DNA of 37,264 nt, from positions 1 through 37,264 of the forward strand of contig JACOVA010000102.1 in the NCBI GenBank assembly GCA_016177575.1, given 5' to 3'. The notes beneath the pieces were generated by a model that saw only the letters and a list, made by a program, of their open reading frames with translations, was not told where the DNA came from and searched no databases. Both the position numbers and the translations under genes were made by a program. The stretch is from Betaproteobacteria bacterium (GTDB lineage: Bacteria; Pseudomonadota; Gammaproteobacteria; Burkholderiales; SG8-39). This document shows positions 30,706-35,557 of the stretch, one piece after another (position 1 is the stretch's first letter; every line of letters begins with the position of its first letter).

Positions 30706-34422
<3,717 letters not shown>

Positions 34423-34441
34423 CGAGCTTCCCAGAAACAGA

Positions 34442-34474
34442 AACGCCCGCTCAGCTTTCGCAGAAACGGGCGTT
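34442..34474 (-). terminator. Rho-independent-type terminator in the metH leader
   Basis: On the minus strand AACGCCCG (34467-34474) pairs with CGGGCGTT (34442-34449) across a 17-base loop that holds a small GC-GAAA-GC hairpin, followed by TTCTGTTTCT. It ends about 20 bases before the metH ATG, so no promoter can sit between. The 5' arm CGCCCG is also complementary to CGGGCG inside the upstream aptamer (34525-34530), making an alternative antiterminator pairing possible. Confidence 0.7.
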
Positions 34475-34484
34475 GGCACGTCTC

Positions 34485-34553
34485 TTTAGCGGAACTTGTT
34501 TTTCCCCGCGTCTCGGCGGATCGGCGCCCGCAAGCTGAACATCAAATCGGCGC
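34485..34553 (-). promoter_or_regulatory. SAM-II type riboswitch aptamer upstream of metH
   Basis: Read on the minus strand: P1 GCGCC (34549-34553) pairs with GGCGC (34524-34528). The loop starts GATTTGA (34542-34548), as in SAM-II. AGCTTG (34531-34536) pairs with CAAGTT (34493-34498) as the pseudoknot helix, with one G-U. GCTAAA (34485-34490) ends the motif. These are the conserved elements of the SAM-II (metA) class, known mainly from alphaproteobacterial methionine genes. Unusual: a hairpin CCGC/GCGG (34516-34519, 34506-34509) is inserted in the loop that is normally short. Identified from memory of the consensus, not by a model search. Confidence 0.75.
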
Positions 34554-34560
34554 AGCAGGC

Positions 34561-34566
34561 ATTCTA
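34561..34566 (-). promoter_or_regulatory. -10 element of the metH promoter
   Basis: TAGAAT on the minus strand, 5 of 6 to consensus. Transcription would begin near 34554, exactly where the riboswitch P1 helix starts. No convincing -35 is visible at 16-18 bases upstream. Confidence 0.45.
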
Positions 34567-34582
34567 GCATCCGCGCGCCCGG

Positions 34583-35557
34583 TCAGTGCAGCTGCGGCTT
34601 GCTGAGGAAATCGCTGCGGTCGGCCGAGCGCAGCGCCAGGCGCTGCAGCGCGCCGCGGCGCGAGACCGTCAGCGCGACCTCGGTGCCGGCGGGCCCGAGG
34701 CTCCACAGCTTGCGAAACAGCGCCGCCAGACCGGTGACGCGTTCGCCGGCCACCTCGAGCACCAGGTCGCCGAGTGCTACGCCGCCGCGCTCGGCCGGGC
34801 CGCCCGGGGCGAGCCCGCCGATCACCACCTGCCCGTCGACCTCGGTGGCGTAGATGCCGAGCCAGGGGCGGGGCGCGCGCGCGGGGCGGCCGAGCGCGAG
34901 CATATCCTCGAGGATCGGCTCGAGCAGCTCGACCGGCACGAACATGGTGCCGTCGACCGCCCTGCCGCCGACCGCCTCCTGCACCAGCAGCGAGCCGATG
35001 CCGAGCAGCCGCCCGTCCTCGCCGAGCAGCGCCGCGCCGCCCCACTGCGGATGCGCGGGCGCGGTAAAAATCGCGTTGTCGAGGACGTACTCCCAGTAGC
35101 CGGCGAACTCGCGCTTGGCGACGATCTTCACCTTGAGCGAGTGGGCGCGGCCGCCGTGACCGATGACGATCGCCGCCGCCCCCGGCACGGCCGCGGCGGC
35201 AGGGGCGCGCGCGAGCGGCCGCACGCCGAGCGCGGCGAGCGGCAGCACCAGGCCGAAGCCGCTTGCCTGGTCGTAAGCGAGCGCATGTCCGGCAACGACG
35301 GTGCCGCGATTGGTGGCGAGCCAGATCGACTGCGCCTCGGTGATCAGATAGCCGATCGTCAGCACCAGCCCGTCCTCGCGGATGACGACGCCGTTGCCCG
35401 CGCGTTCGGTTCCGAGGATGGCCGCGGTGAAGGCGCCCTCTGGAATCTCGGCGCGCAGCATCACCACCGAATCGAACGCCGATTCGAGATCGAAGCGCGT
35501 CTGCGCCGGGTCCGGCTGCAGGGTGGCGGGAAACGCCCAGTTGCTGGTCTCGGCCAT
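34583..35557 (-). CDS. S1C-like PDZ protein lacking the catalytic triad
   Basis: 324 residues. A trypsin-like double barrel (about 25-215) of DegP/HtrA type is followed by a PDZ domain (about 233-315, PWLGIYATEVDG, GGPAERGGVALGDLVL). The catalytic positions appear lost: the His segment reads LVLTIGYLITEA (about 64-75), the Asp segment AYDQASGFGLV (about 94-104), and the Ser segment HPQWGGAA (Trp172 where GNSGG has Ser). There is no signal peptide, so it is probably cytoplasmic. It may be a binding or scaffold protein. Divergent from the thioesterase gene by 27 bp. Confidence 0.85.
   Translation of the reverse strand: MAETSNWAFPATLQPDPAQTRFDLESAFDSVVMLRAEIPEGAFTAAILGTERAGNGVVIREDGLVLTIGYLITEAQSIWLATNRGTVVAGHALAYDQASGFGLVLPLAALGVRPLARAPAAAAVPGAAAIVIGHGGRAHSLKVKIVAKREFAGYWEYVLDNAIFTAPAHPQWGGAALLGEDGRLLGIGSLLVQEAVGGRAVDGTMFVPVELLEPILEDMLALGRPARAPRPWLGIYATEVDGQVVIGGLAPGGPAERGGVALGDLVLEVAGERVTGLAALFRKLWSLGPAGTEVALTVSRRGALQRLALRSADRSDFLSKPQLH

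Follow-up and report, generated by a model that had tools for sequence, protein, structure and literature searches.

A SAM-II-type leader upstream of metH in a betaproteobacterium is most likely a transcriptional OFF switch

In SAM-II riboswitches, as set out in the report of the founding member, transcription starts a few nucleotides before P1 and a terminator lies before the gene, and the founding member discriminates strongly against SAH (PMC1273637). The same report places the class in alpha-proteobacteria and a few other lineages, with Bordetella bronchiseptica appearing in a figure legend. Occurrence in beta-proteobacteria is also given in PMC2704228 and, with terminators, in PMC2258182. 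The initial annotation of the locus described here had regarded SAM-II in a betaproteobacterium as a notable pair, a view that these three sources overtake; the occurrence is already published, and class and host are unsurprising to specialists. In S. meliloti, the SAM-II leader of metZ is predicted to terminate upon SAM binding, and under high SAM the short RNA from this leader goes up while metZ mRNA goes down (PMC9373788).

Several other described elements resemble this class. SAM-V has the pseudoknot core and a P3 hairpin between P1 and P2 that is followed by an A stretch, whereas SAM-II is described without P3 (PMC6061858); SAM-V is described as acting on the ribosome site. SAM-II long loops (RF01726) are a named expansion of SAM-II, listed for Bacteroidetes and marine samples (PMC2864571). 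In the accessible text of Leyn et al. (2014), SAM_alpha occurs only in Rhizobiales and Rhodobacterales, and a new pseudoknot element, “metXZ”, is reported from 34 betaproteobacterial metX/metZ leaders (PMC4239095). That element has a terminator and a possible antiterminator, but it is treated there as new and not as SAM-II, occurs once per genome and is not reported for metH. The same paper describes the SAH riboswitch (RF01057), a betaproteobacterial switch of the SAM cycle that has metH as a target in Comamonadaceae. The Rfam sRNA Bp2_287 (RF02424) goes back to Bp2_Cand287, which its founding paper places upstream of methionine genes, suggests to be a cis element, and counts among the candidates described as RT-PCR-verified (PMC3521395); in the available text of PMC10987360 and PMC6337395, Bp2_287 stands only in tables. 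Within the mostly open literature, and as far as its accessible text goes, we found no report of SAM-II on a betaproteobacterial metH and none equating SAM-II, the metXZ element and Bp2_287; the text available from PMC13273304 and PMC12452182 held nothing bearing on the SAM-II class of the leader. What we add is metH as a target, a P3-like insert in its leader, and evidence that Bp2_287 represents this element read from its other strand.

The window, by which we mean the whole 37,264-nt stretch of DNA that was analyzed, contains a minus-strand gap of 160 nt between an HtrA-like protease gene and metH. The features of this region are as follows.

34583-35557: HtrA-like protease gene (similarity below NCBIfam cut-offs)
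34566-34561, minus strand: -10-like TAGAAT, with TGC preceding (sequence)
34553-34549, minus strand: P1 5′ strand, GCGCC (sequence and Rfam alignment)
34548-34542, minus strand: conserved L1 segment, GAUUUGA (sequence, Rfam alignment and instance set)
34541-34532, minus strand: putative antiterminator 5′ strand, UGUUCAGCUU, inside the aptamer and overlapping both P2 5′ strands
34537..34540, minus strand: distal 5′ strand of pseudoknot P2, G-U(bulged)-U-C (columns C3, C5 and C6; covariation with 34480-34482)
34531..34534, minus strand: proximal 5′ strand of pseudoknot P2, CUUG (sequence and column-pair analysis)
34528-34524, minus strand: P1 3′ strand, GGCGC (sequence and Rfam alignment)
34503..34520, minus strand: P3-like inserted segment between P1 and the P2 3′ strand, a possible hairpin (fold of the insert)
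34495..34498, minus strand: proximal 3′ strand of pseudoknot P2, CAAG (sequence and column-pair analysis)
34490-34485, minus strand: conserved SAM-II core segment, GCUAAA (sequence, Rfam alignment and instance set)
34480..34482, minus strand: distal 3′ strand of pseudoknot P2, G-A-C (columns t3-t5; covariation)
34474-34442, minus strand: terminator-like hairpin of ~11 pairs with a loop of ~11 (hairpin search)
34457-34443, minus strand: putative antiterminator 3′ strand, AAGCUGAGCGGGCGU, which is the terminator loop plus 3′ arm (duplex and constrained folds)
34441-34434, minus strand: U-rich terminator tail, TCTGTTTC, ending ~11 nt before the ATG
30706..34422, minus strand: metH, cobalamin (vitamin B12)-dependent methionine synthase, the gene proposed to be regulated (NCBIfam PRK09490, 2085 bits)

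Reading the minus strand, we found every element of the initial annotation in its place, with AGCTTG (34536-34531) complementary to CAAGTT (34498-34493) and the metH ATG at 34422-34420. Its naming of the downstream gene agrees with the NCBIfam match, and the closest MetH relatives are betaproteobacterial by title, as it had said of the host. The leader shares with SAM-II the P1 stem, the GAUUUGA loop, the CUUG/CAA pseudoknot and GCUAAAG, as well as a -10 just before P1, a terminator and methionine genes downstream. It differs in having ~21 extra nt from P1 to the 3′ strand of the pseudoknot, in its short, bulged distal P2, and in its target, metH, where the accessible text of the SAM-II papers names metA, metX, metY and metZ.

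We assigned the class with covariance models. At curated cut-offs Rfam had no match in the window. A permissive Rfam scan returned five rows at E≤10, and here RF00521 (SAM_alpha) matched the 5′ half only, at 14.5 bits (E 0.52; cut-off 36), apparently owing to ~21 extra nt that separate P1 from the pseudoknot's 3′ half. Among ten orthologous metH leaders scanned, the three that are free of the insert scored 38.8 bits (L005), 38.7 bits (L008) and 33.2 bits (L009), the first two above the cut-off and the third below it, while SAM_alpha did not match any of the seven insert-bearing ones at E≤0.1. In the window's own genome, the leader of metZ reached 34.8 bits across the full RF00521 model, slightly under the cut-off. 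To avoid circularity, we built a model without metH, R2 (alignment A3), from 17 metX and metZ-like leaders only. R2 found one place per source in the 20 sources searched and gave the window a score of 55.7 bits. Run on the own genome, R2 matched the window at E 1.8e-14, a result that is more than chance, and the metH and metZ leaders were the only matches. The covariance-model scan proposed in the initial annotation gave no significant hit on the window alone, the outcome that it had named as refuting, but this is outweighed by L005, L008 and the metH-free model, and the SAM-II type that had been claimed holds. By its sequence, the metH leader is SAM-II-type, slightly enlarged by the insert.

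We take SAM to be the probable ligand. That a related pseudoknot aptamer senses SAH, or SAM and SAH together, is very unlikely; metH is a target of SAH riboswitches in Comamonadaceae (PMC4239095), which makes a by-product signal plausible, but GAUUUGA, GCUUGC and GCUAAAG of the leader are common to the consensus of RF00521, the family whose founder rejects SAH so strongly (PMC1273637). RF01057, moreover, had no match at the metH leader, and the genome has a separate SAH riboswitch. This copy lies on another contig (C41:29754-29837; 41.7 bits, above the Rfam cut-off) and is the sole match in the own genome, suggesting that both sensors coexist. Two further classes were considered and set aside: no SAM-V family (for SAM-V, presumably RF01826) was among the five Rfam rows for the window at E≤10, and a search of the own genome with RF01726, the long-loop form, gave nothing at E≤10. 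Relative to SAM-V, the metH leader also differs in its terminator and its SAM-II-type conserved letters.

To describe the distribution of the element we used a second model, R1, made from 10 leaders including the window and trained mainly on metH leaders. At E≤0.01, R1 had matches in 228 of 300 genomes from the window's order, very likely the Burkholderiales of GTDB, and in 34 of 41 relatives, commonly with one to four matches per genome. RF00521, by comparison, was searched in 120 genomes of the order and exceeded its cut-off in only 20 of them, with matches at E≤0.01 in 55. These figures suggest a widespread sensor, probably of SAM, for metX, metZ and metH in this order. From 258 loci, 175 of which (L084-L258) came from R1 matches, mostly the best-scoring, we collected 178 unique instances. 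The collection used a fixed-letter pattern that requires GATTTG and GCTAAA and that missed L136, L138 and L192, so the conservation of these letters is in part built into the set. For gene assignment we used tblastn with six reference proteins. The nearest recognized downstream gene was metZ-like in 75 instances, metX in 45 and metH in 40, and more rarely a MATE gene (7), metK (4; 3 adjacent and 1 at ~1.3 kb) or ilvA (1), with none of the references in 6; these shares are biased because the sampling favors metH and high scores (of the 40 metH rows, 10 came from a MetH protein search and 1 is the window). Five of the 75 metZ-like rows are at 33-36% identity and may be other members of the enzyme family. 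The names metX, metK and ilvA are our reading of translations, metZ was named by NCBIfam, and MATE by Pfam on L260. As far as the text description of the metXZ element allows a comparison, it is very probably the same RNA as the present leaders.

We then examined pairing in 171 distinct leaders by column-pair statistics, using corrected mutual information and 2000 shuffles. The top three variable column pairs were u4-E7 in outer P1 (126 of 171 paired, versus a shuffled mean of 52%) and, in the distal pseudoknot, C5-t4 (129 of 171 versus 53%) and C3-t5 (104 of 157 versus 42%); for each of the three, 0 of 2000 shuffles were as good, with the proviso that shared ancestry is still present in the shuffles. 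Rank four fell to C4-t4, which belongs to another register and was paired in 97 of 171 leaders, a level that 0 of 2000 shuffles reached. The strict register of distal P2, C4-t5 with C3-t6, was discarded, its pairing being at or under the shuffled level. The bulged register with C3-t5 would fit the alignment, though C4-t4 also beats shuffles. Inner P1 and proximal P2 are nearly invariant and so give no covariation signal in the set, but a leader from another family, L259, has P1 as GCGUC/GACGC in place of GCGCC/GGCGC, a compensatory change.

The initial annotation had proposed to look for covariation in metH leaders. Among these leaders alone, C5-t4 was paired in 33 of 39 (1 of 2000 shuffles as good), but the outer P1 pair was weak, being formed in 20 of 39 rows with 123 of 2000 shuffles as good, and the window itself does not form it. 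The six-pair P2 drawn earlier as AGCTTG/CAAGTT is possible in the window, yet it is largely specific to the window, and only 6 of 171 rows allow its fourth pair, C34534-G34495. The pair at the end of the third strand, G34531 with C/U, is possible in 139 of 171 rows. Judged from the alignment, the pseudoknot shared across the family consists of UUG/YAA and another short helix, 34537-34540 with 34480-34482, and a P1 and P2 pseudoknot of SAM-II type is supported by covariation.

The insert between P1 and the 3′ strand of the pseudoknot is at least 15 nt long in 36 of the 178 instances, the remaining 142 carrying 1 or 2 nt there. Insert-bearing leaders stand before metH in 20 cases, metX in 7 and metZ-like genes in 7, with no gene assigned in 2. 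All 36 inserts fold with at least 4 pairs, at a mean z of -1.84, and 14 of them are below -2. The insert of the window, with z -0.77, folds no better than shuffles, and neither do those of its close kin L004, L085, L086, L114, L115 and L117 (z -1.54 to 0.14). By eye, the insert stems of the close kin keep their pairing with changed letters (CCGC/GCGG versus CCAC/GUGG). The form in the window resembles a SAM-II core to which a P3 like that of SAM-V has been added, by analogy of place and with no claim of homology. It is conceivable that the insert leaders are a distinct SAM-II subclass between SAM-II and SAM-V, in which the P3-like hairpin would shift folding speed or affinity and the SAM range of metH would differ from that of metX or metZ in the same cell. 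We hold this idea only tentatively and think it rather improbable, somewhat more so given that the close-kin inserts fold no better than shuffles. The insert-bearing and insert-free leaders nonetheless offer matched forms for testing the role of the P3-like hairpin.

The position of the leader relative to its putative promoter and terminator is that of SAM-II. A terminator precedes the gene and a -10-like element lies near P1, and from this arrangement we infer that transcription starts at or just before P1. The 178 instances have an A/T-rich peak 13-18 nt 5′ of GATTTG, and a TANNNT begins 13 nt before P1 in 39 of them and 14 nt before it in 32; a simple promoter scan of the window leader found none. 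Within 200 nt downstream, 172 of the 178 instances have a terminator-like hairpin, compared with 21 of 174 control stretches taken from inside genes, whose composition may differ from that of leaders. This comparison supports the attenuation-type OFF switch that the initial annotation had proposed. A terminator was not found for six instances (L127, L135, L144, L243, L244 and L256), two of which, L127 and L243, are among the 40 metH leaders. L244, a metX leader, has a possible TTG start ~10 nt or less past GCTAAA, suggesting translational control. The terminator of the window was itself missed by the simple scan, which allows loops of 3-8, the loop here being ~11.

We next considered how the aptamer might communicate with this terminator. 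Two segments of the aptamer 5′ strand, UGUUCAGCUU (34541-34532) and GCGCC (34553-34549), have their complement in the terminator loop and 3′ arm (34457-34443). The energy of this duplex is -24.8 kcal/mol, with 0 of 100 shuffles as good. Constrained folds, in which pseudoknot and ligand are not counted, gave -45.7 kcal/mol for the terminator state (-43.9 with P1 enforced) and -43.2 kcal/mol for the antiterminator state, and in this model the two would be close enough in energy for ligand switching. A duplex between the 5′ half of the aptamer and the terminator's loop plus 3′ arm beat shuffles (at most 5 of 100) in 17 of 38 metH, 19 of 43 metX and 6 of 73 metZ-like leaders, and because only 17 of the 38 metH and 6 of the 73 metZ-like leaders do so, this antiterminator is not general. 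The metZ-like leaders are instead enriched for pairing of the GCUAAA segment with the terminator, either with its 5′ arm and loop (23 of 73) or with its loop and 3′ arm (15 of 73).

The initial annotation had placed the antiterminator elsewhere, between the 5′ arm of the terminator, CGCCCG (34472-34467), and CGGGCG (34530-34525) in the aptamer. The same riboswitch switching in this way, before the 3′ arm is made, is an alternative that we consider unlikely. The complementarity is real, it nests with the 3′-arm pairing (-39.8 kcal/mol), and its earlier formation is kinetically attractive, since pairing with the 3′ arm becomes possible only once the terminator has been transcribed and must win by competition. 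Against it, the pairing with the 5′ arm and loop is equalled by 17 of 100 shuffled aptamers, and it beats shuffles in 1 of 38 metH leaders, whereas pairing with the loop and 3′ arm does so in 17 of 38.

Our preferred reading for the window is the pairing with the loop and 3′ arm. Transcription would begin at or just before P1. When SAM is high, P1 and the pseudoknot would close and sequester the strand 34553-34531, the terminator (34474-34442) would form, and RNA polymerase would halt ahead of metH. When SAM is low, UGUUCAGCUU, aided by GCGCC, would pair with AAGCUGAGCGGGCGU, the loop and 3′ arm of the terminator, which would then be kept from forming, and metH would be transcribed. Since UGUUCAGCUU holds both 5′ strands of the pseudoknot, ligand binding and antitermination would be mutually exclusive. 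From the scores of the orthologues and of R2, the covariation and the terminators, we therefore read the leader as SAM-II-type and most likely a transcriptional OFF switch. That a SAM-II riboswitch, in a betaproteobacterial form with an inserted hairpin-like segment, turns metH off by premature termination at high SAM is in our judgement highly probable. What the computation shows is the elements themselves, the relatedness to SAM-II, the family covariation of the outer P1 pair and the pseudoknot, the terminator, and the complementarity that an antiterminator would need; which way metH is regulated, and how strongly, is inferred. We give almost no credence to a non-ligand attenuator or a chance assembly of motifs in a GC-rich leader. 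The whole leader of the window indeed has no folding advantage over shuffled sequence (z -0.39; equalled by 63 of 200 shuffles), as such an explanation would have it, but the presence of the element in 228 of 300 genomes, its target genes, the covariation and the terminators all speak against it.

The permissive scan of the window also raised the opposite strand. On the plus strand at 34440-34589, RF02424 matched with 26 bits (E 0.00035), outscoring the partial SAM_alpha match, and it also matched homologous leaders. Together with the RT-PCR verification described for its founder (PMC3521395), this could point to a functional RNA on the other strand, a Burkholderia-type sRNA Bp2_287. However, 26 bits is far under the cut-off of 70, and the -10, the pseudoknot covariation, the U-tailed terminator and the met genes are all on the metH-sense strand. 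In 120 genomes, 37 of the 41 listed RF02424 matches overlap a match of a SAM-II model, every one on the opposite strand and none on the same strand, and the remaining 4 have no such overlap; the 37 combine 29 of 41 by overlap with R1/RF00521 rows picked by eye and 8 of 12 by an R2 search of ten genomes. The sole RF02424 match above cut-off in these 120 genomes (L259, 1254-1456, minus strand; 107.5 bits) lies antisense to a riboswitch that carries the insert and precedes a metZ homologue. The founding paper itself suggests a cis element upstream of methionine genes (PMC3521395). We rejected the plus-strand sRNA on the strength of these opposite-strand matches and regard it as extremely improbable. 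RF02424, filed as an sRNA, appears from these overlaps to be modelled on the strand opposite a SAM-II-type riboswitch, a strand without the covariation and the met genes. SAM-II, the metXZ element and Bp2_287 are three filings of what is very probably one RNA.

Some instances stand before genes other than those of the main targets. In L163, L179 and L206 a SAM-II-type leader lies ~35 nt before an apparent metK (SAM synthetase), and in L195 ~63 nt before an apparent threonine dehydratase gene, ilvA. In L260, L273, L145, L196, L212, L219, L230, L233 and L238, all from the window's order, the leader is followed by a gene for a small protein and then by a MATE-family transporter gene. The small proteins are ~105-115 aa long and mostly start with M[FY]DC, and the two that were scanned had no Pfam match. 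Leader, small protein and MATE gene may form a SAM-regulated operon outside methionine synthesis, judging by gene order; a literature search on SAM riboswitches with MATE gave nothing of use. Closely spaced SAM-II-type matches were seen in L260 (192-354), L261 (199-357), L263 (3-165 and 917-981) and L273 (202-441), and tandem SAM-II has been reported before (PMC9481103). In L260, a terminator-like hairpin comes after the first match, and the second sits ~60 nt ahead of an ATG.
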